Origin: a virus
Virus record (IMG/VR): IMGVR_UViG_3300044951_000456
Coordinates: 1 to 21,508 of that record
Length of the DNA stretch: 21,508 bases
Strand: one strand, 5' to 3'
The notes under the pieces: model-generated
The model's input: only the letters and a program-made list of their open reading frames with translations
Databases searched by the model: none
What the model was told of the DNA's origin: nothing
Made by a program: the position numbers and the translations under genes
Part shown: in pieces, positions 1-20,499 of the stretch
Layout of the letters: each line of letters begins with the position of its first letter
Position numbering within the stretch: position 1 is the first letter of the stretch

Positions 1-236
1 GGTGCTTTAGCCGCAGGTGTAGGTGCTTTAGCCGCAGGTGCAGGTGCTTTAGCCGCAGGTGCTTTAGCCGCAGGTGCTGGTGCTTTAGCTACAGGTGCTG
101 GTGCTTTAGCTACAGGTGCTGGTGCTTTAGCCGCAGGTGCTTTAGCCGCAGGTGTAGGTGCTTTAGCCGCAGGTGTAGCTGTTTTAGCCGCAGGTGCTTT
201 AGCTACAGGTGCTGGTGCTTTAGCCGCAGGTGTAGC
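1..236. repeat. Coding tandem repeat (GGTGCTTTAGCCGCA units)
   Basis: This is a minisatellite-like array of the unit GGTGCTTTAGCCGCA and longer variants containing GGTGCTGGTGCTTTAGCTACA. Unit lengths are multiples of three, so the leftward frame is kept when units are gained or lost. The array continues past position 1. Copy number may vary between relatives through slippage or recombination. Confidence 0.9.
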
Positions 237-239
237 CAT
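1..239 (-). CDS. Ala/Lys/Pro repeat protein, H1-tail-like (C-terminus outside window)
   Basis: This is a leftward reading frame, open from an ATG at 239 to the window edge, giving 79 visible residues. After Met the visible part uses only Ala, Lys, Pro, Thr and Val, built from repeated units such as PAAKA and PAPVAKA. The DNA is a matching tandem repeat of 15-, 21- and 27-bp variants. The start overlaps the stop of the upstream gene (TAATG), so translation is probably coupled. Such Lys/Ala/Pro tails resemble the C-terminal tails of histone H1 and bacterial H1-like proteins (AlgP, HctB), which bind DNA without a fixed fold. A DNA-binding or virion-internal role is inference. The same composition could instead be a flexible linker leading to a domain outside the window. 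The frame is convincing because it stays open through all repeats and starts on a coupled ATG. Confidence 0.75.
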   Translation of the reverse strand, partial: MATPAAKAPAPVAKAPAAKTATPAAKAPTPAAKAPAAKAPAPVAKAPAPVAKAPAPAAKAPAAKAPAPAAKAPTPAAKA

Positions 240-517
240 TAGCGCATTGCTCCTTTTGTGTGCCCTTTAGTAGCACAACCATCACCACGTAATGACGCAG
301 AGCCGCCTTTAGCATAACCTTTACAAGACCCACCAGCTTTTTTACCTTTGTAGTAATCAGAGCCGCTAAAGTCTTTACTAGGTGAGTCGCCTAAACCAAA
401 CTTACCCGCTGTCGCTGACTCGTCCTTATTTCTCTTATCAATCATCGCTCTGTCAATATTAGCTTGACCAACATCAGGCTCTTCTTGTTTTTTTGACATT
501 TTTACTTTAGTAGCCAT
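239..517 (-). CDS. Small basic Gly/Lys-rich phage protein with YAKGGS tail
   Basis: A 92-aa protein of unknown function. The N-terminal half is charged and probably disordered. The C-terminal part reads CKGYAKGGSASLRGDGCATK and then GHTKG, a Gly/Lys signature with two cysteines. The next gene upstream ends in a related pattern (YAKGGS, a gap, then GxAxKGxTxG), so the two probably share a tail motif. I associate this RGDG...RGxTKG type of tail with small proteins in virion gene clusters of aquatic phages; that is recollection. The ATG at 517 overlaps the stop of the upstream gene as TAATG, and its own stop overlaps the ATG at 239 the same way. This indicates one translationally coupled string. 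Confidence 0.75.
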   Translation of the reverse strand: MATKVKMSKKQEEPDVGQANIDRAMIDKRNKDESATAGKFGLGDSPSKDFSGSDYYKGKKAGGSCKGYAKGGSASLRGDGCATKGHTKGAMR

Positions 518-6238: not shown

Positions 6239-6423
6239 CAATTATCGTCCTCATATTTCTGCAGGTCTTTTAATCTATTAAGTGCTAGGGACAGACCCGA
6301 TAAAGTCCCTACCAACTGCTTATAAGATGGATAGTCTTCTACCCGCCCTCTTGCGAGGGCATCAGTGTGAGCGGCTATTTCATCTTCAAGTTCTTTGCGC
6401 AGTACGTCTAATACTGTTGTCAT
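6238..6423 (-). CDS. Small helical protein between portal and co-chaperonin genes
   Basis: A 61-aa mostly helical protein (VLDVLRKELEDEIAAHTDAL, then YKQLVGTLSGLSLALNRLKD). I recall similar small proteins next to portal or scaffold genes in tailed phages, with the same ARGRxEDYxxYKxLVG pattern. Their function is unknown. It starts 3 bp after the portal stop and ends in a TGATG overlap with the co-chaperonin, so it belongs to the head operon. The tight spacing and the composition support a real gene despite its size. Confidence 0.75.
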   Translation of the reverse strand: MTTVLDVLRKELEDEIAAHTDALARGRVEDYPSYKQLVGTLSGLSLALNRLKDLQKYEDDN

Positions 6424-6426
6424 TTG

Positions 6427-8931
6427 TTATCCCATAGGTTGTGGTTGTGGTGGTGCTGGGGGCATAGATGGTGGTTGTTGAGGCGCTGGTGCAGGTGGTG
6501 CTCCCTGTGGTCCTGCTTGTGTTATTGGAGCCGCAGGAGGCGTAGCTTGCATGGCGTTTTGTGCGTTTATTTGTTGAGTAGCCATATCCAACCCTTTAAA
6601 CAAACCTTGGACCTTAGCGTCTTCGCCTTGAACCAGTAACTTAGCTTCATTGTTTAGCATAGCTATTTCTTTACTAGCGTCTATCTTCTTAAGCTCAATC
6701 TCTTTCTTATCATTAAGCTCTTGTTGTTTCAGCTGTAGTTCTTTTTGCTGCATCATCACTACAGGGTCTTGCGCTTGCTGTTGGGCAGTTTTTTGAGCTT
6801 GCTCAGCTTGGTTAGCTTGTATTAATTGTTTAGCAGCGTCAGCAGATAGTTTAGCTAGTTGTATCTCCATCTCTGGACTTAACTTAGCATCTTCTGGAGG
6901 AAGAGTAGTACCTAACTGAGTCTCTATACCACGGCGATATTGGAAGCCAACGTGTTCCATAATATGAGCCATTAACGCTTGTTTTATCACTGATGCTTGA
7001 GGATTTTGTCCCATAGCCGCTGCTATCTTAGGATCGTCCAACATGCTCTGGTGTACCGCTAAATGGGCGTCTTGGTCTTGTTCTATAAAGGCTTTGACAG
7101 GCTTAGCTTTAAGAATATTTACATTCTCTGTGACAGGGTCTGTCGGTACTTGGTCATCTTCAACAATAACAATCTTGTCTGCATCTTTAATACCCATAAC
7201 TTCTAACATTTGACGATGTAGTACAGGCAGGTTGTATATCTGTGGAGATTGTTGTGCTAACTGAATAGCCGCTTGGTACTGAATAATACGTTGCGCCATA
7301 GTACTGGCGTTAGGATCAGAGACTGGGATAATATCAACTTTATCATAATCTTCTTTCTTAGCTGTTGCAGGTGCATCAAAGTCCGGTAGGTAGTCATAAG
7401 CAGGAGCTGTATAGTCTCTTACCAACGCTGCAATCAACTTAAACTCTTGCTCCATTGACGCATGAACACGAGCTTGTACGGCTGACATTACTTTAAGAGT
7501 TCTTTCTAGGATAGCCAGTGTGGTGCCTACTGGTGCCTCACCGTTCATGTTCTCTAGTTTAACATCAGCAACTGCAGCTAATCTACGGCCTTCTTCTACT
7601 ACGTTTTGGAGCAGTTGGAAAAGAGTTGCACTTGGTTCCTTATATGGAAGCGGTAGAATATTGTCTTTAATGTTAGCAGATGGTACGTCAACATCTCTCC
7701 ACTCACCGGGCATAATGGGTGTGTCGTCACCTTTAATCCTAAGACCTCTAGACTTCAGACCACCGGGTAAATTAGATAAAGTCCCCGCATCAATTAACTG
7801 TCTTACTATAGAAGTCGCAGACTTAGCAAAGCCACCAATAAGGTGAATAAGCCCATAGCCATAAGCTCCGAAACCGGGGATATAAGTATACTGTACAAAG
7901 TGTTGCTTAGCTTGTTTAAGAGGGTCATGTTCATCCCAGTTGCGCCTAATAGAAAGAATCTCTTGAGTACTGCTCTCAATAGTAACGATGTACGGCAGGG
8001 CTATGCCCGTCTCTTCTTCAGTCTCGTCATCCATGTCTTCAAAGCCAGCTAGGTCTAACTCAACCTGCATCTCTAAAAGTTTGTATCGGTTGTCATAAGT
8101 TGCTTTGTAACCACTAGACTCATCTTTGCGCTGTTGCACATCGTCTAGGTCTTTAGATGGTTCGCCTAAGTCTACATCTCTGTAGAACTCAGCGTATTGT
8201 AGCTTCTTAATGTCGTTCTTGGTCTTACGCATCACATGGGTGAGGCGCTCTGCTGTACGTGCATCTGATGCACCGTAGGGGATATAAAGGTCTTCTGCAG
8301 GTACAAACATACTTACCTGACGGTTCATAGAAGGGTCAAAATACACTTTCTTAAAGGAAGCACCTGCTAAAGCTAGTGACCACAACATTTTCTCGTGTTC
8401 AGGTCTAAACTCTGTCATCTTCTCAGTTAACTGGTAATTCATGTCTTCTACAACACGTTTAGCCGCTTTCTGAGTATCAGGGTCGTCTTTACCAATTATC
8501 TTGGCTTTTACAGGTCCTTGTGCCGGAAATGTCTCGGAGATCATCTCTGATTGAAAACGTATCGCCGCTTCTGTTAGCATGGGGTGGTATACACCACAGG
8601 CACCTTGCCAAGGTTCAGAGCGTTCTTCAATCTTTAAACCGAGTAAATCTAACCCATCTATGTAGGTAGTTTCCCAGTCTTTTCGGGCGTTCTTGTCATT
8701 TTCAAAGTCATCTAGCAAATCAGAGACCAACGCTGTCATATCTGACTCATCCATGTACTCTGCAAGGTTTGCATAAAAACCCGGCTCTTGTTCCATCTCT
8801 ACTTCAACTTCAGTATCAATAGGGTCCATAGGATCACCTATATTAATCTCTACAGGAGCGTCATCATCTTCCGCTAAAAACGGACTCTGGGGTTGCATAG
8901 CTTTAAAAATGTTGTTTGGGACTGCAGACAT
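6427..8931 (-). CDS. Portal protein (P22 gp1-like)
   Basis: An 834-aa portal subunit, which would form the dodecameric ring at the packaging vertex and dock the terminase. It has an acidic N-terminus (EDDDAPVEINIGDPMDP), a segment WETTYIDGLDLLGLKIEERS, then PWQGACGVYHPMLTEAAIRF, and a long helical crown/clip region including SATSIVRQLIDAGTLSNLPG. From about residue 655 there is a Gln/Lys-rich coiled coil, then a Pro/Gln-rich tail. It is somewhat longer than P22 gp1 because of this tail. Residues about 453-468 (AVADVKLENMNGEAPV) are encoded by 50 bp that recur exactly in the early gene at 11526. It follows terL with AGGA as the ribosome-binding site. Confidence 0.92.
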   Translation of the reverse strand: MSAVPNNIFKAMQPQSPFLAEDDDAPVEINIGDPMDPIDTEVEVEMEQEPGFYANLAEYMDESDMTALVSDLLDDFENDKNARKDWETTYIDGLDLLGLKIEERSEPWQGACGVYHPMLTEAAIRFQSEMISETFPAQGPVKAKIIGKDDPDTQKAAKRVVEDMNYQLTEKMTEFRPEHEKMLWSLALAGASFKKVYFDPSMNRQVSMFVPAEDLYIPYGASDARTAERLTHVMRKTKNDIKKLQYAEFYRDVDLGEPSKDLDDVQQRKDESSGYKATYDNRYKLLEMQVELDLAGFEDMDDETEEETGIALPYIVTIESSTQEILSIRRNWDEHDPLKQAKQHFVQYTYIPGFGAYGYGLIHLIGGFAKSATSIVRQLIDAGTLSNLPGGLKSRGLRIKGDDTPIMPGEWRDVDVPSANIKDNILPLPYKEPSATLFQLLQNVVEEGRRLAAVADVKLENMNGEAPVGTTLAILERTLKVMSAVQARVHASMEQEFKLIAALVRDYTAPAYDYLPDFDAPATAKKEDYDKVDIIPVSDPNASTMAQRIIQYQAAIQLAQQSPQIYNLPVLHRQMLEVMGIKDADKIVIVEDDQVPTDPVTENVNILKAKPVKAFIEQDQDAHLAVHQSMLDDPKIAAAMGQNPQASVIKQALMAHIMEHVGFQYRRGIETQLGTTLPPEDAKLSPEMEIQLAKLSADAAKQLIQANQAEQAQKTAQQQAQDPVVMMQQKELQLKQQELNDKKEIELKKIDASKEIAMLNNEAKLLVQGEDAKVQGLFKGLDMATQQINAQNAMQATPPAAPITQAGPQGAPPAPAPQQPPSMPPAPPQPQPMG
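7527..7576 (-). repeat. 50-bp segment duplicated in inverted orientation at 11999-12048
   Basis: The leftward-strand sequence of these 50 bp is identical to the rightward strand at 11999-12048, with mismatches immediately on both sides. It encodes AVADVKLENMNGEAPV in the same frame in the portal gene and in the early gene. Codon choice is identical throughout, so this is copied DNA and not protein convergence. Confidence 0.97.
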
Positions 8932-8958
8932 GGGCCGATCCTTTAAGTTATTTGTTTG

Positions 8959-10449
8959 TTAGTAATAGTTAGCACGTTTCTTATACATCCAGTTGTCTTC
9001 GTCAATACTGTCTTTAGCGGAACCGATGAACCCTCCAGAACGAAATCTAGCAAGGGCTAGAGTCACGGCATCTACAAAGTCATCATTCCTACCAGAAGGG
9101 AAGGACGCAACCTCATCTATCACTTCTTCAGCCCAGCGAGTAGACGGAGCCCATACTTTACCAGAAGCAAACATATCAGACACAGCATTAAGTCGTGATA
9201 TCTTATCTTGTCCACGTGACGGTGTAAACTCTTGTACGGGTATGCCCATACGCCTTAACTCATATATCAGAGGCGCACCTGATGCCTTCTTCTCAATAAT
9301 AACACCATCGGGCTCCCACTCCTTGTAAAACTCTAGTGTTTTAGCCTTCAACTCTGGAAACTCTAGTCGCTCTCGCCAAGCCTCTAAAAGTATTAAGTTC
9401 GGCTGGTCTCCATCCTCCGGATTGCTCCAAACTCCAAATACCACTACCGCACTGTAGTCAGCACTGGTCTTTTTCTCAAACGCCGTATCCATTGACATCA
9501 ACAAGAAGTCGCATTTTGGAGGTTTCTTCTCCTCCCACTTCTGCCACCACTCTCTCTTAACTATCGCCGTAGACTCAGATGTGGGTTGTTGCTGGTACTG
9601 TGCTTGCCATTTGCCGCTGGGTATCTCAGCCTTTACCGCCATTAACTCTTCAAGAGGCCAAAACTCAGGCCAAAGCGGGTTGCCACTAGGCAAAATAGCA
9701 GGAAACTCAATAACGTCCCATTTATCCCCACCCATAGCAGCAGACTCTAATATCTGCCCTGTTAAGTCCCTAAGACTCCAGCGAGTCATAACTATTATGA
9801 TCGCCCCACCCGGTTGTAGACGTTGCCGAGGTCCAGATGAGTACCAACTAAACACCTTGTCGTACACTTCAGGGTTGTACTGAGCTATAACAGCATCGCC
9901 TTCACTATGAGGATCATCAATTATCAGTAGGTCAGCACCTTTACCCGTAACCGCTCCGTTAATACCAATAGCGAAATAGTCCCCTCCTGAGCTTGTGTTC
10001 CATCGTCCAGCTGCCTTTGAGTCAGTCTGTAGCCCTACACCCGGAAATATGGACTGGTATTCATCCGACCCAACTAAGTTCCTCACTTTACGTCCAAAAC
10101 CCACCGCAAGCTCTGCAGTGTGCGAACACTGGATGACCTTCTTCTCTGGAAAGCGCCCTAAGAACCAAGCAGGTAACAGATAAGACGAAAACTCACTCTT
10201 GGTATGCCGAGGCCCTAAGTTAATAATAAGTCGCTTACACTCGCCATTAGCCACCCTCTCGAACTCTTTTGCCATACGTGCATGGTGCCTCCCATAAATA
10301 AAGCCGGGCCACACTTCCTGCACAAACGATAAGAAGCTACCTTGTGCTTCCTCTCTAGACTTGCGTTTCTTTAATTCTTTTATTAGTTGCGCTAAGTGTA
10401 TCCGATCTGATTCTGGCAGGGTGGCAAGTCTTTTCTTCATCTCCTCCAT
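8959..10449 (-). CDS. terL: Terminase large subunit
   Basis: A 496-aa DNA-packaging motor and nuclease. The ATPase domain carries a variant Walker A (LGPRHTKSEF, around residues 78-87), Walker B LLIIDDPHSE (D178, D179) and a coupling motif IVMTRWSLRDL (about 219-229). The RNase H-like nuclease domain has acidic residues in MSMDTAFEKK (D321), VIIEKKASG (E386) and NDDFVDAVTLAL (D456, D457, D460). It cuts the concatemer and pumps DNA through the portal encoded next. The ATG at 10449 overlaps the stop of terS (TAATG). The Walker A lacks the usual second glycine, a common deviation among phage terminases. Confidence 0.95.
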   Translation of the reverse strand: MEEMKKRLATLPESDRIHLAQLIKELKKRKSREEAQGSFLSFVQEVWPGFIYGRHHARMAKEFERVANGECKRLIINLGPRHTKSEFSSYLLPAWFLGRFPEKKVIQCSHTAELAVGFGRKVRNLVGSDEYQSIFPGVGLQTDSKAAGRWNTSSGGDYFAIGINGAVTGKGADLLIIDDPHSEGDAVIAQYNPEVYDKVFSWYSSGPRQRLQPGGAIIIVMTRWSLRDLTGQILESAAMGGDKWDVIEFPAILPSGNPLWPEFWPLEELMAVKAEIPSGKWQAQYQQQPTSESTAIVKREWWQKWEEKKPPKCDFLLMSMDTAFEKKTSADYSAVVVFGVWSNPEDGDQPNLILLEAWRERLEFPELKAKTLEFYKEWEPDGVIIEKKASGAPLIYELRRMGIPVQEFTPSRGQDKISRLNAVSDMFASGKVWAPSTRWAEEVIDEVASFPSGRNDDFVDAVTLALARFRSGGFIGSAKDSIDEDNWMYKKRANYY

Positions 10450-11027
10450 TAGCGCCCACCTCGCAACTCTTCGTCAGTTAACTCCACACGGGTATCCCGC
10501 ACCTCTTTTACCCCTGCTAAATCCCCTAGAGAATATGTGGCTAATAGAGATGTTAGTTCTGATTCCAATTCAGTTGTAGGTTTGTCTGTTGTAGTTACTT
10601 CTATCTTGGTACTGAACAACCCAATCTCTGAAACCTTACCTAGCATCTCAAGGGCTTTTATAGCTAACTTAGGGTCTTCACTTTCTGCCAGCTCAAACAT
10701 CTTAAAAATGAGGTACTGACGCATTTTGTTTGTGGCATTGGGGAGATTGTAGTCAAACTTCTTTAAAAGCTTCTCAAGGGCCTTGGCGGCGCCAGAAGTG
10801 GTAGGTGCAAGTGGGGCGTCTGGTTGCTCTAAAAAGATACTCAGGGCCTCGGTCTTTTCTTGGTGGGTGTATTCGGGAGGGAGGTCTGCGTGTGCAACCC
10901 CATTATTCAATAAAAAGCTTCTATCAGCAAACACCTCTCGTGCCTGTAGATATGCACTGGCTGTATCCCTCTCTGAAGGAGCTAAGAGGGCCTCTAATTC
11001 TAGTACTAAGTCTAAGTCAGAATCCAT
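10449..11027 (-). CDS. terS: Terminase small subunit (likely)
   Basis: A 192-aa acidic, largely helical protein directly upstream of terL and coupled to it by TAATG. It would recognise the packaging site and load DNA onto TerL. Helical stretches (KMRQYLIFKMFELAESEDPK, then LAIKALEMLGKVSEIGL) resemble the oligomerisation region of small terminases of this type. The assignment rests mainly on position and general character, since small terminases diverge fast. It is the first gene of the leftward operon, about 35 bp downstream of the predicted start site of the leftward promoter. Basic residues are few, so a DNA-binding HTH is not obvious. Confidence 0.75.
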   Translation of the reverse strand: MDSDLDLVLELEALLAPSERDTASAYLQAREVFADRSFLLNNGVAHADLPPEYTHQEKTEALSIFLEQPDAPLAPTTSGAAKALEKLLKKFDYNLPNATNKMRQYLIFKMFELAESEDPKLAIKALEMLGKVSEIGLFSTKIEVTTTDKPTTELESELTSLLATYSLGDLAGVKEVRDTRVELTDEELRGGR

Positions 11028-11069
11028 AATTTACCGTTATTCGCAGAACTAAAAGTTCAGATACCCTCT

Positions 11070-11099
11070 AGACTACCACTTAGTTTTTGGCATTGTCAA
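11070..11099 (-). promoter_or_regulatory. Leftward promoter candidate for the terS operon
   Basis: On the leftward strand, TTGACA (11099-11094) is followed after 18 bp by TAGTCT (11075-11070). The -35 is perfect and the -10 is weak, with 3 of 6 consensus bases. It is correctly placed before terS. A weak -10 could mean dependence on a phage activator for late expression. Confidence 0.45.
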
Positions 11100-11133
11100 G
11101 GTATTTTGGTGGGGCTTGGGGGGAATTTGGAGA

Positions 11134-11161
11134 TTTGATAAACTGCCCGCAGTTTATCAAA
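11134..11161. repeat. Perfect 13-bp inverted repeat, 2-bp spacer
   Basis: TTTGATAAACTGC and GCAGTTTATCAAA flank CC. On the + strand the hairpin is followed by A residues, and on the leftward strand the T run precedes it, so it is not an intrinsic terminator in either direction. It lies between the divergent promoters and suits a dimeric repressor/activator operator, or an element of an origin or packaging site. Confidence 0.8.
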
Positions 11162-11240
11162 AAAAGGGGAAAAGGTCAAATTTTTAATAAAAATTTTTAT
11201 GGGTTTTTGTTTTGAAAGGCTTGGGGGCCTTATAGGGTAA

Positions 11241-11259
11241 GGGGTGGGTGGGGTTTGGG
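11241..11259 (+). other. G-quadruplex motif with very short loops
   Basis: Four G runs (GGGG, GGG, GGGG, GGG) are separated by T, T and TTT. More G runs lie just upstream (11223-11227 and 11235-11237). This satisfies the standard G3+N1-7 pattern with loops short enough for a stable parallel quadruplex on the + strand. It is located in the divergent noncoding region. Confidence 0.7.
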
Positions 11260-11421
11260 ATTTTGAAAATTCTACTAATTGTTTGTGTGTAACACAGTAT
11301 TAGCGCAGTACGGGACTCCAAACGTAGAAGGGGGGCTCCACCCACCGTACCCTCAGCCTAGACGTTAGCCCACGTATCACAAGGGCTGGCGGAATCCTGT
11401 TCCACTGAGGTCGGACGTTAG

Positions 11422-11450
11422 TTGACATTGCCTGACAATAGGCGTAGAAT
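11422..11450 (+). promoter_or_regulatory. Early promoter P1
   Basis: TTGACA, 17-bp spacer, TAGAAT. It matches the sigma70 consensus at 11 of 12 positions and drives the first rightward gene. The predicted start near 11457 leaves a leader of about 70 nt that contains a B-type hairpin. Confidence 0.85.
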
Positions 11451-11458
11451 AGTAACCA

Positions 11459-11498
11459 GTCGAAGCAATACCGCTTAGACCGTAGTATCTGATACTAC
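11459..11498 (+). promoter_or_regulatory. Leader L1: A-like hairpin and B element
   Basis: An imperfect stem, GTCGAAGC/GCTTAGAC (11459-11466 and 11473-11480), is followed by the 17-bp dyad GTAGTATCTGATACTAC (11482-11498). The B element is the same as at 15107-15123 and, with one central change, at 14660-14676. There is no C hairpin; AT-rich sequence leads to the start codon. Confidence 0.75.
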
Positions 11499-11525
11499 AC
11501 TAATTAATTAATAGGACTATATAAC

Positions 11526-12206
11526 ATGAAAACAATTAAAACTGCTGTAAAAACTGCTGTAAAAACTGCTGTATTAGTAGCAACTGAAGCGCAGAATGTG
11601 GCTAGTATTAAGGTGTTAGATGATGCCATTAACGTATTTACCCGTATCGCGAATAACATAGATCATGATATATTTCATACTTATTGTGTAACCTTTCGTA
11701 GGGGACTGGTAGGCGTTGAAGTAGATAAAAATGGGTATTATGTTATCCCCAAAACTCAAAACGATTATATTGACTTGCTTATTGATAAAAATAAAACTGG
11801 TTATAGATCTACACGCCAAGCCGTTAAAGCCAGTATAGTTGCATGCTTCTATCTTGGCGTAAATGGCACTAATACCACAGCCTACCTAAATAGAGCAAGG
11901 CAAGGTAAAACGCACCTTGAAGCTTTAACCGAATGCGAGTGGGCAATAATCAAAAGAGATTGCAACAAGGCTAGAGACGCCAAGAAAAAGGCTAAAAATG
12001 CAGTTGCTGATGTTAAACTAGAGAACATGAACGGTGAGGCACCAGTAGCAGTTGAGACCGTAGCAGTTAAATCATCGGTATCGCCAAGCCAAGACCGTAT
12101 AAACAAGGCATACAATGATATTATAGCCAAACTGTCGGAAAATGACATGTTGGTACTTATCGAAATGTTAGAAACTCACTTATTAGAAGCTAGCCCCGAA
12201 GCATAA
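11526..12206 (+). CDS. Early protein of unknown function with a portal-derived insert
   Basis: A 226-aa protein with no family I recognise. The N-terminus has three KTAV repeats encoded by a 12-bp DNA repeat. A middle region (IDHDIFHTYCVTFRRGLVGV, then VIPKTQNDYIDLLID) precedes a basic segment (KRDCNKARDAKKKAKN). Then comes AVADVKLENMNGEAPV, encoded by 50 bp identical to the portal gene. The end is an acidic helix (LSENDMLVLIEMLETHLLE). It is the first rightward gene, with its own promoter P1, a B-type leader, AGGA before the ATG and a terminator behind it. It is therefore a single-gene early unit, probably abundant. A regulator or host-takeover protein is conceivable but unproven. Confidence 0.8.
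   Translation: MKTIKTAVKTAVKTAVLVATEAQNVASIKVLDDAINVFTRIANNIDHDIFHTYCVTFRRGLVGVEVDKNGYYVIPKTQNDYIDLLIDKNKTGYRSTRQAVKASIVACFYLGVNGTNTTAYLNRARQGKTHLEALTECEWAIIKRDCNKARDAKKKAKNAVADVKLENMNGEAPVAVETVAVKSSVSPSQDRINKAYNDIIAKLSENDMLVLIEMLETHLLEASPEA
11538..11572 (+). repeat. 12-bp tandem repeat encoding KTAV
   Basis: Three near-identical 12-bp units (AAAAACTGCTGT) at the start of the gene give KTAVKTAVKTAV. The repeat is in frame, so it can expand or contract without a frameshift. Confidence 0.9.
11999..12048 (+). repeat. 50-bp copy of the portal-gene segment
   Basis: Exact match, on the opposite strand, to 7527-7576. Both copies are read in the same frame (residues about 159-174 here, AVADVKLENMNGEAPV). 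The flanking bases differ immediately at both ends. The pair forms a 50-bp inverted repeat about 4.4 kb apart. Confidence 0.97.
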
Positions 12207-12212
12207 TTTACT

Positions 12213-12237
12213 AGCCCCCGAAAGGGGGCTTTTTTTT
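12213..12237 (+). terminator. Rho-independent terminator
   Basis: A 7-bp AGCCCCC/GGGGGCT stem with a GAAA tetraloop is followed by eight T residues, counting the last base of the stem. It lies 7 bp past the stop of the 226-aa early gene and ends that transcription unit. Confidence 0.95.
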
Positions 12238-12696: not shown

Positions 12697-13971
12697 ATGG
12701 AAACCCAATCCAACACCAAAAACTTGCCAATAACTACAAACCGATACAAAAATGCCTTAGAACTTGCTCACAGACTAAACAGGATATTTGCAAATGAGTA
12801 CGCTTGTTATAGATATGCAGTTAAGCACAACACAACCCAAAATAGGTTGGATAAGCAACAAAAGGCGCAAGCTGACCTAGCCAAGCAGATTGCAGATAAA
12901 GACAGACGCAACAAAGTAATAGATGCTTTATACGACCTTGCCAACTATACGTACATAAACAAGAGCACTGGTGTAACATCAACCCAACCCAAGTACACCA
13001 TTAAGAGAGCTGTGAAGTCGGCGTTAAGCCCTAAAAAAGCACCCGTAGTATGTGATACTACGCAAACCCAACAACCCCTATTAACCCAAGAACTACTGCA
13101 ACACCACCTGTATTACGACCAAGAGCTAGGCACGTTTGAATGGAATGAAGGATCACTGGCAGGTACTATAGTTAAGTTCACAGCTACCCTTGCTAAGCCG
13201 ATGAAGCCCCAGAACCCTTACACATTGCCAATTAAACCTCGTAATCACAGACCCTCACATGCAGGATACAGCGTAGTATCAATGGAAACCTACCTAACAG
13301 AGGTAGAGAGGGCTAAAAGCAGTAAAATAGGTGCTAAAAATGCTAGATTTGCCTATGCTAGGCAGTATCTTATAAGAAACCCAGACAAAACATCGGCACT
13401 AGCGACAATAAAGGTGACTTATTACGTGTTAAGTCATAAAGAATCGCAACAATACCCTAGTATTACCCTAAAAGTAGGCACAACAAGACGAAAATACCCA
13501 GCCCAGCACTTAGCATACCTATACATGGGTGCAGGAGGTGACTGGAACTACAATACAGGGCAACCAAACGGCTTAGATAACGCATACAGGGTAAATACAA
13601 CAACTGCTCCACAAGGACTAAGGCTGTACTGCCACAAGACGAACAAGCCCAAACGCATGCCGTGTAGAGACGGCAACCCGCTCAACTTAAAGTGGGATAA
13701 CATTAAACCTGACCCTATCAGTACTGCATCTATCACTAAAGACCCGACAGTGAAGAAACCACCTCGCATACTCACCTGCAAACGTGTGTACAGCTACAAG
13801 AGGAACATAAAGGTAATAAAAGGGCACTGGGTTGTGCATAACATAGGCACAGATGCGTTCTACGCATGGTCATTAGATGATGCGGAGCGTGAATTTAGTA
13901 GGAGGCTGGCGAGAGTTAAAGGAACTAAGCAGAAATTGAGAAACGGAGACATATTAGTTTACAAGACGTAA
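12697..13971 (+). CDS. 424-aa protein with expanded HNH/AP2-like architecture
   Basis: A basic protein of uncertain function. Residues 1-115 are helical and unlike anything I recognise. From about 133 it parallels the two HNH-AP2 proteins in this window. YYDQELGTFEW plus SLAG (139-155) matches YDQETGIFTW...SIAG. KYPAQHLAYLYMG (266-278) matches YLAHRLAWFFMYG. CHKTN...NPLNLKWDNI (312-336) matches DHIN...ICNLRLDSN, with extra residues between. KGHWVVHNI...AEREFSRRL (375-404) resembles the AP2-like GKWTAQI...AHAAYLRSK segment. It may be an active HNH nuclease or a domesticated DNA-binding relative. P2 drives it, with AGGA before the ATG. A B element lies inside the gene at 13045-13061. Confidence 0.75.
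   Translation: METQSNTKNLPITTNRYKNALELAHRLNRIFANEYACYRYAVKHNTTQNRLDKQQKAQADLAKQIADKDRRNKVIDALYDLANYTYINKSTGVTSTQPKYTIKRAVKSALSPKKAPVVCDTTQTQQPLLTQELLQHHLYYDQELGTFEWNEGSLAGTIVKFTATLAKPMKPQNPYTLPIKPRNHRPSHAGYSVVSMETYLTEVERAKSSKIGAKNARFAYARQYLIRNPDKTSALATIKVTYYVLSHKESQQYPSITLKVGTTRRKYPAQHLAYLYMGAGGDWNYNTGQPNGLDNAYRVNTTTAPQGLRLYCHKTNKPKRMPCRDGNPLNLKWDNIKPDPISTASITKDPTVKKPPRILTCKRVYSYKRNIKVIKGHWVVHNIGTDAFYAWSLDDAEREFSRRLARVKGTKQKLRNGDILVYKT
13045..13061 (+). repeat. B-type dyad inside a coding sequence
   Basis: GTAGTATGTGATACTAC is the leader B element with one change in its central triplet. Here it encodes VVCDTT (residues 117-122 of the 424-aa protein). The preceding CC and the C/A-rich following bases also resemble the leader context. 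It sits exactly between the unrecognised N-terminal part and the HNH-like part. Confidence 0.85.
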
Positions 13972-14078
13972 AGATTTTAGTATAGTTTGAGGTGTGCCTA
14001 GACTTAGCGGTTGAATAATGAATTGAGCGTTCATTGGCACATAACCTTTCAGCTCATAACCTACTCAGAGGTTGCACT

Positions 14079-14567
14079 ATGCAAAACATCAAAGACTTCC
14101 TATCATACGATCAAGAAACAGGTATCTTCACTTGGGTTAAAAAACCTAACCGCAATATAAAACTTGGGAGCATAGCTGGGCGTAAACGTAATGATGGGTA
14201 TGTGGAGGTAAAATACAACAAAAAACACTACTTAGCACATAGACTAGCATGGTTTTTTATGTACGGGGAAGTGCCTTTATATAACATAGACCACATCAAC
14301 GAGATTAAAATAGATAACCGTATATGCAATCTTAGATTAGATAGTAATGGGGAAAATACGCATAACATTAGTAAGCCTAGAGTAGACAATACATCAGGGT
14401 ATAGAGGAGCTTATTGGCATAAACAAAGGGGTAAATGGACAGCACAAATACGGGTAAAAGGAGTTCTTATACATTTAGGTATGTTTAACCTACCAGAGGA
14501 GGCACATGCGGCTTACCTACGTTCAAAGAGGGAGAACCACCCATTTTGGATAGAAAAAACTAATTAA
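14079..14567 (+). CDS. Free-standing HNH homing endonuclease with AP2-like domain (copy 1)
   Basis: A 162-aa HNH endonuclease. Its N-terminal motif is FLSYDQETGIFTW (7-19), followed by YLAHRLAW (51-58), the HNH core YNIDHINEIKIDNRICNLRL (H72, N80, N84), and a C-terminal AP2-like DNA-binding domain (about 107-150: GYRGAYWHKQRGKWTAQI). Such enzymes nick or cut cognate DNA to spread their own gene. I chose ATG 14079 over an upstream in-frame TTG at 14034 because it has an AGAGG site upstream and begins like copy 2 (MQNIKDFLSYD versus MLDIKDYLSYD). It lies between the 424-aa gene and promoter P3, with no sign of intron structure. Confidence 0.92.
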   Translation: MQNIKDFLSYDQETGIFTWVKKPNRNIKLGSIAGRKRNDGYVEVKYNKKHYLAHRLAWFFMYGEVPLYNIDHINEIKIDNRICNLRLDSNGENTHNISKPRVDNTSGYRGAYWHKQRGKWTAQIRVKGVLIHLGMFNLPEEAHAAYLRSKRENHPFWIEKTN

Positions 14568-14640: not shown

Positions 14641-14711
14641 ACCGCCTCAAGCGGTAGCCGTAGTATCAGATACTACACCCAGATAGCTAAGTTAGAGCAA
14701 CCTAACTTAGC
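14641..14711 (+). promoter_or_regulatory. Leader L3: hairpins A, B and C complete
   Basis: Hairpin A is ACCGC-CTCAA-GCGGT (14641-14655). B is GTAGTATCAGATACTAC (14660-14676). C is GCTAAGTTAG with loop AGCAAC and CTAACTTAGC (14686-14711). The leader is about 130 nt long and ends at AGGA before the ATG at 14739. The same order and spacing recur at 16473-16541 and 17530-17604. Confidence 0.88.
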
Positions 14712-14738: not shown

Positions 14739-15110
14739 ATGATGTTTAACCCACAAATTTATACCTCCTTAGTAGCATTAAGAGAAGCATCAATAGTAGG
14801 AGCACACAGCGACACCACCATCGACAATATAGATGTCTTTGGTTGGTTTGAAGGCAACGCTTACGCTTGTAAGTACATTTATGATTATGTATCTGAGGCT
14901 GAGTATGCAGTAGCAGGGGATTGCATTGATATAGTAGAAGAGGGAGAGGATCAGGAAGCTGTATCAGCATTAAGGAAGATCGTAAGGGATAACGATAAAG
15001 ACTGGGAGGTTATTCATATGGAAGCAGACCAACTGCTGTGTAGCCTACTTGAGGATAAGTATCCTCAGTTAGTAAAGGACTTTAAGTCCCTAAACAAATG
15101 GTATGCGTAG
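14739..15110 (+). CDS. Acidic early protein of unknown function, 123 aa
   Basis: A small acidic soluble protein (many D and E, for example IDIVEEGEDQEAVSALRKIV). I recognise no family. Two consecutive ATG codons open the frame, 14739 and 14742; AGGA at 14728-14731 fits either. It is the first gene behind promoter P3 and a full A-B-C leader. Its TAG stop lies inside the next B element (15107-15123), so stop and hairpin are physically merged. Acidic small early proteins often act as inhibitors or DNA mimics, but that is only a possibility here. Confidence 0.75.
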   Translation: MMFNPQIYTSLVALREASIVGAHSDTTIDNIDVFGWFEGNAYACKYIYDYVSEAEYAVAGDCIDIVEEGEDQEAVSALRKIVRDNDKDWEVIHMEADQLLCSLLEDKYPQLVKDFKSLNKWYA

Positions 15111-15163
15111 TATCTGATACTACACCCCAACCAAATAGCTAAGTTAGAGCAACCTAACTTAGC
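15107..15163 (+). promoter_or_regulatory. Intercistronic leader L3': B and C without promoter
   Basis: The B element GTAGTATCTGATACTAC (15107-15123) contains the TAG stop of the preceding gene. Hairpin C (15138-15163, loop AGCAAC) follows, then AATAGGAATAG before the ATG at 15194. No -35/-10 is seen, so the element works in the middle of a transcript. This argues for an RNA-level or translational role. Confidence 0.85.
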
Positions 15164-16472: not shown

Positions 16473-16541
16473 ACCCCCTTAAGGGGTTGGCAACCGTAGT
16501 ATCAATACTACACCGAGCTAAGTTAGAGCAACCTAACTTAG
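16473..16541 (+). promoter_or_regulatory. Leader L4: hairpins A, B and C
   Basis: Hairpin A is ACCCC-CTTAA-GGGGT (16473-16487). B is GTAGTATCAATACTAC (16496-16511), one base shorter at the centre. C is CTAAGTTAG with loop AGCAAC and CTAACTTAG (16518-16541). The changed pair in A relative to L3 and L5 is compensated on the other side of the stem. Confidence 0.88.
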
Positions 16542-17529: not shown

Positions 17530-17604
17530 ACCACCTCAAGTGGTCGGCAACCGTAGTATCAATACTACACCCAACCAAAGCTAAGTTAGATTAACCTAAC
17601 TTAG
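17530..17604 (+). promoter_or_regulatory. Leader L5: hairpins A, B and C
   Basis: Hairpin A is ACCAC-CTCAA-GTGGT (17530-17544). B is GTAGTATCAATACTAC (17553-17568). C has the invariant CTAAGTTAG/CTAACTTAG stem but loop ATTAAC (17581-17604). AGGA follows before the ATG at 17622. Confidence 0.88.
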
Positions 17605-17621
17605 TACAACAGGAAAAGACA

Positions 17622-18698
17622 ATGAAAAAACCATATAGTTCAATCAACATGCAAGAAACCATTAAGTTAATCAGCGCAGTAGGTGAGCGGCTAACCGTCC
17701 TTGTACAGGGTGAGATGGGGATTGGCAAGTCATCAATCCTTAAGGCTCTAGCAAAGAGCCACCCCAACCATATCCCATGCTACATAGACATAACAACAAA
17801 AGATGTGGGCGACTTCCTTGTACCACAGATACGTACCATAGACGGTACACCAGTATGCTCATTCATTCCCAATGAGGAGTTCGGCTTTCACTTAGGTAAG
17901 CCCTTGATCGTAATGCTTGACGAGGTAGGTAAGGCAGGTAAAGCGGTAATGAACGCTTGTCTACGGCTTATGCTAGAGCGTAAGCTAGGTATCCATGAAC
18001 TACCAGAGGGCAGTATAGTCTTTGCAACTACTAACCTAGCAGTTGAGGGTATAGGTGATAACTTGCCGCCCCATGCACGTAATAGGGTTTGTGTGGTTAA
18101 GATGTGCAAGCCTACTGCTGAGCAATGGCGTTGGGATTATGCACAGAACGCAGGTATCGACCCTGTAGTGATAGCGACAGCTATTGAGTATCCATCTATG
18201 TTAGCCAGCTTCGAGGACTATGAACGTCCTGACATGAATGAGTATATCAATGACCCTCGTGTACCTAGAGCGGCGTTCGTTACACCACGTTCGTTAGAGA
18301 AAGCAAGCGACATACTTAAGCTGTGCCGTGAGATGCCTGAAGAAGTGTTGACCCATGCGCTGTTCGGTGTGATAGGTGAGCGGGCTACTATGGATATGAT
18401 GAACATACTTAAGCTGGATAACACCATGCCAGCATGGTCAGAGATCATTAACAAGCCTGACACTACTATAGTACCACCCAACGGAGCGGCTATCTGTCTG
18501 GTAGTTAGCAAGGCGTTAAGTAATGTAGCTACTGATACGTTTGACAGTTGGATGACGTATTTAAATAGGTTGCCACGTGAGGCACAGGCTTTGTTTGCTA
18601 TGAGTGTGATGAGTGCCAATAGCCCTAAGCGTAACGTAGCAGTTACTAATAGGAAGTTCACTGAGTATGCCGTTTCGCAAGGTTACCTTTTCTCTTAG
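17622..18698 (+). CDS. MoxR/CobS-like AAA+ ATPase
   Basis: A 358-aa AAA+ protein. Walker A is GEMGIGKSS (30-38), Walker B is LIVMLDEVGKA (95-105, D100, E101), sensor 1 is FATTN (134-138) and the arginine finger region is HARNR (151-155). The pattern DITTKDVGDFLVPQ (56-69) after Walker A is typical of MoxR/CobS-type ATPases. The C-terminal third is helical. Such ATPases remodel partners together with VWA proteins, whose MIDAS contacts the client, as in cobalt and magnesium chelatases and MoxR chaperones. The VWA partner is encoded two genes on, with an HNH gene between. The gene is transcribed from P5 through a full A-B-C leader. Confidence 0.9.
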   Translation: MKKPYSSINMQETIKLISAVGERLTVLVQGEMGIGKSSILKALAKSHPNHIPCYIDITTKDVGDFLVPQIRTIDGTPVCSFIPNEEFGFHLGKPLIVMLDEVGKAGKAVMNACLRLMLERKLGIHELPEGSIVFATTNLAVEGIGDNLPPHARNRVCVVKMCKPTAEQWRWDYAQNAGIDPVVIATAIEYPSMLASFEDYERPDMNEYINDPRVPRAAFVTPRSLEKASDILKLCREMPEEVLTHALFGVIGERATMDMMNILKLDNTMPAWSEIINKPDTTIVPPNGAAICLVVSKALSNVATDTFDSWMTYLNRLPREAQALFAMSVMSANSPKRNVAVTNRKFTEYAVSQGYLFS

Positions 18699-18794: not shown

Positions 18795-19256
18795 ATGTTA
18801 GACATCAAAGACTATTTATCCTATGACCCTGAGACTGGACTATTTACTTGGGTAAGGAATACAGGTAGGCAGAATAAACTAAATAAAATAGCAGGACATA
18901 TAGCTAAAAATGGGTACGTGTATATCCAATATAAAACTAAGAGGTATTTAGCTCATAGACTAGCATGGTACTTCTATCATGGAATACCACCCCTATATTC
19001 TATAGATCACATCAATGAAGTTAAAGACGACAATAGAATATGCAATCTTAGATTAGATACTAACAAGGAGAACGGACAAAACAATAGTACTTGTAAAGGA
19101 ATGAGCTGGAGTACGACTAGAGGTAAATGGCAAGCAGCCATATCAATAAAAGGTGTAAATAAGTTCTTAGGTTACTACGATACACCAGAGGAGGCACGAG
19201 ATGTATATCTATGTGCTAAGAGAGAACATCACCCATTCTGGGTAGAGAGTAAATAA
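18795..19256 (+). CDS. Free-standing HNH homing endonuclease with AP2-like domain (copy 2)
   Basis: A 153-aa paralogue of the protein at 14079. It has the same motif order: DYLSYDPETGLFTW, YLAHRLAWYF, the HNH core YSIDHINEVKDDNRICNLRL (H72, N80, N84), a shorter AP2-like segment (about 102-141, GMSWSTTRGKWQAAI) and the same ending (HHPFWVE versus NHPFWIE). The two genes share a stretch of 22 identical bases at the NLRLD motif, so they are recent relatives. GGAGG precedes ATG 18795. It lies between the AAA+ ATPase gene and its VWA partner, so it probably invaded that module. Confidence 0.92.
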   Translation: MLDIKDYLSYDPETGLFTWVRNTGRQNKLNKIAGHIAKNGYVYIQYKTKRYLAHRLAWYFYHGIPPLYSIDHINEVKDDNRICNLRLDTNKENGQNNSTCKGMSWSTTRGKWQAAISIKGVNKFLGYYDTPEEARDVYLCAKREHHPFWVESK

Positions 19257-19341: not shown

Positions 19342-20499
19342 ATGTCTAATTTAAGTGCGGAGGATAGGTTGACTCGTGCCCATATTTCATTGATGCAAGA
19401 TAAGCGTACACTAGCATACTCTGGGCTACTGATGGTGGGCAGTACAGAGGTAAGAGATGACTGTCCTACTGCGTCTACCAATGGTCGTGATGTTACTTAT
19501 GGTAGGGCTTTCGTTGAGAGTCTTACTGATGGGGAGCTAAGGTTCTTAGTATTGCATGAGACCAAGCACAAGCTGTATCAGCACTTGTTTGTGTGGCGTA
19601 AGTTGTATGAGGAAGATGCACAGCTTGCAAACCAAGCATGTGATTACGTTATCAACCTAGAGATCAAAGACCTTAACAAGTGGGGCGACTTCCTTGTGAT
19701 GCCAGAGGGTGGGCTGTGTGATGAGGAGTATAGAGGCTTAGATAGTGGCGAGGTGTTCGCTAGGTTGAAGGAGGACAAGGCGAGTGGTAAGGACGGTAAG
19801 GGTGAGCCTATGGATGGGCATGAGTGGGAGGAAGCTAAGGCGTTAGGTGAGTTGGAGAAAGAGCAGTTAGCTAAGGACATATCAGCGGCAGTACGTACTG
19901 GTGCTCTACTAGCAGGTAAGCAGGGTGGTGAGGTAGACCGTAGCTTTGATGCGATGATGCAGTCTAAGGTTGACTGGGCTGAACAGCTCAGAGAGTTCGT
20001 GTCTAGTGTCTGTGTTGGTAAGGGTGATAGCACATGGGCTAAGCCTAACAGAAGATGGTTGCAACATAACATGTACTTACCTAGTCAGATCAGTGAGAGC
20101 ATCGGTAGTATATGTGTAGCTATAGATACGTCAGGTAGTATATCAGGGGAGGATATAACAAAAGCATTGTCAGAGTTAGTTTCTATATGTGATAATACAA
20201 CTCCCGAAAAGATTGATCTGTTGTACTGGGATACAGCAGTTGCCGCTCACGAGCAATATCGTGAAGATAATTATGCTGGACTTGTATCGTCTACTAAGCC
20301 TAAAGGTGGTGGTGGTTCAAGTAGTGTATGTGTGTTTGACTACGTAGTTAAGCACAAGCTAGAGCCTCAGTGCATCATCTTAATTACTGACGGCTATGTG
20401 GAGTACCCACAACTAACCCCATCGTGCCCTGTTATATGGGTGATGGTCAATAACAAACATACAGTACCTCCATTTGGTTCTGTGATAAGGGTGGACTAA
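19342..20499 (+). CDS. VWA protein with N-terminal HExxH metallopeptidase-like domain
   Basis: A 385-aa protein of the DUF2201/VWA-like type. The N-terminal domain contains LHETKHKLYQHL with an HExxH zinc motif (H72, E73, H76). A charged Lys/Glu/Gly linker (about 143-200) follows. The C-terminal VWA domain has a MIDAS: VAIDTSGSISGED (D262, S264, S266), a glycine/serine loop near 322-328 and LITDGYVE (D350). It is the expected partner of the MoxR-like ATPase encoded at 17622 and of the DUF3150-like protein. Whether the HExxH site cleaves proteins or is structural is unknown. Its stop overlaps the next ATG (TAATG). Confidence 0.88.
   Translation: MSNLSAEDRLTRAHISLMQDKRTLAYSGLLMVGSTEVRDDCPTASTNGRDVTYGRAFVESLTDGELRFLVLHETKHKLYQHLFVWRKLYEEDAQLANQACDYVINLEIKDLNKWGDFLVMPEGGLCDEEYRGLDSGEVFARLKEDKASGKDGKGEPMDGHEWEEAKALGELEKEQLAKDISAAVRTGALLAGKQGGEVDRSFDAMMQSKVDWAEQLREFVSSVCVGKGDSTWAKPNRRWLQHNMYLPSQISESIGSICVAIDTSGSISGEDITKALSELVSICDNTTPEKIDLLYWDTAVAAHEQYREDNYAGLVSSTKPKGGGGSSSVCVFDYVVKHKLEPQCIILITDGYVEYPQLTPSCPVIWVMVNNKHTVPPFGSVIRVD

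Follow-up and report, generated by a model that had tools for sequence, protein, structure and literature searches.

The window, as the whole 21,508-bp stretch of DNA analysed here is called, is linear and comes from an assembled virus record. It contains a 50-bp piece of its own portal protein gene inside an unrelated early gene. This in-frame copy is genuine and recent, and nothing like it was seen elsewhere in the 713 ORFs examined from related contigs. Most probably, it arose by a templated insertion that was guided by microhomology and that hit a tolerant linker of the early protein. The late genes of the window (capsid, portal, terminase) are located on the minus strand, and the early genes lie on the plus strand, beyond a divergent region at around 11.0 to 11.5 kb. 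The donor is the portal protein gene (6427-8931, minus strand, 834 amino acids), whose product matches the portal profile phrog_1216 over residues 83 to 758 and thus over most of its length (E = 6.4e-25). The acceptor is the first early gene past the divergent region (11526-12206, plus strand), which encodes a protein of 226 amino acids.

Positions 11999-12048 of the plus strand are identical to the reverse complement of positions 7527-7576 in all 50 bases, and both borders are mismatched, as the first-pass annotation had reported and as was confirmed base for base. Translation also confirmed that the same peptide, AVADVKLENMNGEAPV, is encoded in frame at both sites, corresponding to residues 159 to 174 of the 226-aa protein and residues 453 to 468 of the portal (frame +1). 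The pair is the sole long inverted repeat of the window. In 20 simulated windows generated with an order-2 Markov model, the longest distant inverted match measured 12 to 16 bp; a chance origin of the 50-bp match is ruled out by this maximum of about 16 bp.

That the portal gene is the donor and the early gene the recipient is supported by the position of AVADVKLENMNGEAPV, which is found at one and the same position in every portal compared; copying from the early gene to the portal gene is rejected on the same grounds. Among the viral contigs, the exact 50-mer is found only in the portal genes of L091 and L092, which both belong to the window's own portal lineage. The next portal clade (L003, L006 and L008) already differs from the insert at three positions, all of them synonymous, and the clade beyond that differs at six to seven. 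The restriction of the exact 50-mer to its own lineage and the synonymous differences of the next clade support a recent copy, which had been proposed before, and the 50 bases fit copying before or after the exchange of the early cassette equally well. Over positions 6392-11374, L091 differs from the window at only eight sites (about 99.8% identity). The nearest portals of isolates, such as those of Planktothrix and Pelagibacter HTVC023P-like phages, are about 44% identical, and the portal relatives are mostly uncultured. In a low-confidence structure model of the portal (mean pLDDT 53), the peptide is predicted to form a loop between two long helices comprising residues 433 to 454 and 468 to 507. 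In the portal gp8 of phage T7, a tunnel loop is followed by a helix of 39 residues (PMC6702177), and the portal peptide may correspond by its position to this loop.

Profile searches of Pfam and PHROG with the 226-aa protein gave no family match. Its codon bias equals that of the genome on either side of the insert, the insertion site lies in an Ala/Lys-rich linker, and the gene is flanked by a promoter and a terminator which are common to the relatives. In four close relatives, L088 to L091, the sequences on the promoter side and on the terminator side are the same, but the gene enclosed by them is a different one, coding for 273 to 289 amino acids; the swapped cassette spans positions 11439-12212, with blastn breakpoints at 11437-11439 and 12213-12225. 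When relatives of the 226-aa protein were sought among phages, viral contigs and genome contigs, either the portal piece or nothing was returned, and no relative with an empty site was found in these sets. Thus, the comparison with relatives suggested by the first-pass annotation revealed that the insert is unique to the window contig, but it yielded no orthologue of the 226-aa protein with or without the insert. In a sensitive search, the first early genes of L017 and L019 ranked at the top, apart from one chance-like ORF; since the E values range from 0.07 to 1.4, homology of the 226-aa protein to these positional counterparts is suggestive. Structure prediction gave a poor model of the protein (mean pLDDT 38). 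The 226-aa protein and its positional counterparts have a common layout, in which an N-terminal part is joined to a charged linker rich in Ala and Lys and, in many cases, to a helix at the C-terminus. The counterpart linkers vary in length; that of L017 contains a run of ADV repeats and that of L021 is Ala-rich.

The insert is bordered by a 7-bp direct repeat, GCAGTTG, the left copy of which is located at 12000-12006 and the right copy at 12048-12054 of the plus strand, the latter within a 9-bp repeat, GTAGCAGTT, at 12045 and 12060. The probability of finding this repeat at both borders is around 9e-4 at random positions, although this argument is weakened because GCAGTT is common in the Ala/Val-coding stretch, with a third copy at 12063. 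The junction microhomology comprises 7 bp at the entry side and only 1 to 4 bp at the exit side, in a repetitive Ala/Val-coding context. Given GCAGTTG at both borders, the simplest net event is the insertion of 48 bp or 16 codons, and a net gain of 48 bp keeps the reading frame. During genome copying or recombination, a DNA end within the linker-coding part of the 226-aa gene would have paired with the portal gene over GCAGTTG, and about 43 to 50 portal bases would have been copied onto it. The extended end would then have rejoined the early gene, thereby adding 16 codons between the GCAGTTG repeats. The frame-keeping insert probably survived because the linker tolerates additional Ala/Lys/Val-rich residues. 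Among the routes listed in the first-pass annotation, capture by template switching is the one best supported by the exact copy and the border repeat; such a switch would have acted on an empty ancestral site and would probably have been neutral. The location in a swapped cassette, the repeat-rich linkers of the counterparts and the coding-like sequence on both sides of the insert are all consistent with a templated insertion.

An alternative would be gene conversion, in which an AVADV-like stretch of the ancestral linker was partly overwritten by a patch of portal DNA. The (ADV)n linker of the L017 counterpart, the VADV with which the portal piece begins and the GCAGTT repeats around the insertion site could be explained in this way; however, VADV repeats are absent outside the insert and the direct-repeat geometry of 48 bp is simpler, which makes a replacement unlikely. 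An assembly or library artefact is very improbable. It is true that the window stems from an assembled virus record and that the insert is confined to one contig, but a chimaera gives one junction, whereas here the early gene continues beyond either end of the insert, the frame and the coding bias are preserved, the net length is 48 bp and the flanking promoter and terminator sequences are common to the relatives.

It was also speculated that the peptide mimics the portal or acts as a decoy, a claim which found no support. A selected mimic, in which the tunnel-loop peptide of the early protein binds the portal or a portal partner or blunts a portal-sensing defence, would be in line with the retention of the peptide in frame and with its origin from a conserved portal segment. 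Against this stands the single orphan occurrence. In addition, only two of the six frames of the 50-bp piece are free of stop codons, so that the portal frame is an outcome of about 1 in 2 given that the ORF must stay open, and the in-frame state is weak evidence for selection. Moreover, 16 residues that end in a loop and are cut out of a dodecamer would make a poor mimic. A selected mimic is therefore highly unlikely, and that a functional copy of the tunnel loop disturbs portal assembly, for instance that of a competing phage, or a portal-sensing defence is exceedingly doubtful. The proposal of a cross-hybridising RNA tag fails in the form in which it was made: both mRNAs contain the same strand of the repeat, and since they have the same sense, the portal and early mRNAs cannot pair through it. 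Recombination between the arms of the inverted repeat is possible, but inversion would yield only fusions of the early N-terminus with the portal C-terminus and vice versa. As no intact portal gene would be left, an inversion switch is implausible and was rejected.

The templated insertion from the portal gene looks ordinary in kind and unusually clean, rather than a new mechanism. Rickettsia palindromic elements are in-frame palindromic elements in protein genes, and they resemble the present case in that short DNA is inserted in frame into a tolerant protein region; the piece found here, however, is unique coding DNA and not part of a dispersed palindrome family. Diversity-generating retroelements consist of template and variable repeats with adenine-specific mismatches. 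They likewise involve two short copies, one of which lies in a protein gene, but the copies in the window lack any mismatch, and hence adenine-specific ones, and the donor is a structural gene in its own right. Of those window genes that were examined, none was identified as a reverse transcriptase. Closer parallels are template-switch events: phage T4 recombines at microhomologies of 6 to 10 bp (PMC9391042), and template switching in yeast alters coding DNA, several codons at once, without an adaptive cause or selection (PMC8604942). As in these events, a short stretch was copied exactly from another place in the genome, with putative microhomology at a junction, and its in-frame state does not need selection. 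In contrast to the T4 cases, which are segmental amplifications and deletions, and to the yeast cases, which occur between near-identical inverted repeats, a 50-bp gene piece was moved by 4.4 kb and to the opposite strand. A recurrent copying system was rejected, since no similar gene-to-gene copy was found in the 713 ORFs; the other long matches in the related contigs resemble paralogues, tandem or dispersed repeats, or palindromes.

Several repeats and gene pairs were noted beside the insert. The linkers of L088, L089, L090, L017 and L019 contain in-frame copies of their own leader palindrome, which is also present elsewhere in the early regions. Such copies within coding sequence, for the most part that of the first early gene, lie at L089:4330-4353, L088:3573-3596, L090:830-853, in the L017 early gene, at L019:6741-6758 and at 13045-13061 of the window. 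Dispersed early-region palindromes of the window are located at 14687-14710, 15139-15162, 16518-16541 and 17581-17604, and further ones at 11482-11498, 14660-14676 and 15107-15123; L039, L054, L068, L030 and L021 likewise have dispersed palindromes. Their sequence differs from phage to phage (AACTTCATACGTATGAAGTT seven times in L039, TTTTAGACCGTCTAAAA in L054, AAACTTATACCGTATAAGTTT in L068), and several directly follow promoter-like TTGACA/TATAAT sites. They look like lineage-specific operators, similar to stoperators, or leader hairpins. The left end of the window (1-250) is a tandem array of 15/21-bp units (GGTGCTTTAGCCGCAGGTG...). Two paralogous small genes at 14034-14567 and 18795-19256 (177 and 153 amino acids), HNH-like by eye, have around 70% DNA identity over long blocks, and 17622-18698 and 19342-20499 encode an AAA ATPase (phrog_1297) beside a DUF2201 metallopeptidase/VWA-like protein, a MoxR-VWA-like pair.

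The insertion provides a clean natural case in which a phage has extended one gene by 16 codons taken from another gene of its own, probably in one step, and it shows a route by which the hypervariable linkers of early proteins can gain new sequence. In this uncultured phage, it looks like a copying accident that hit the flexible linker encoded by an unrelated early gene and that the protein tolerates.
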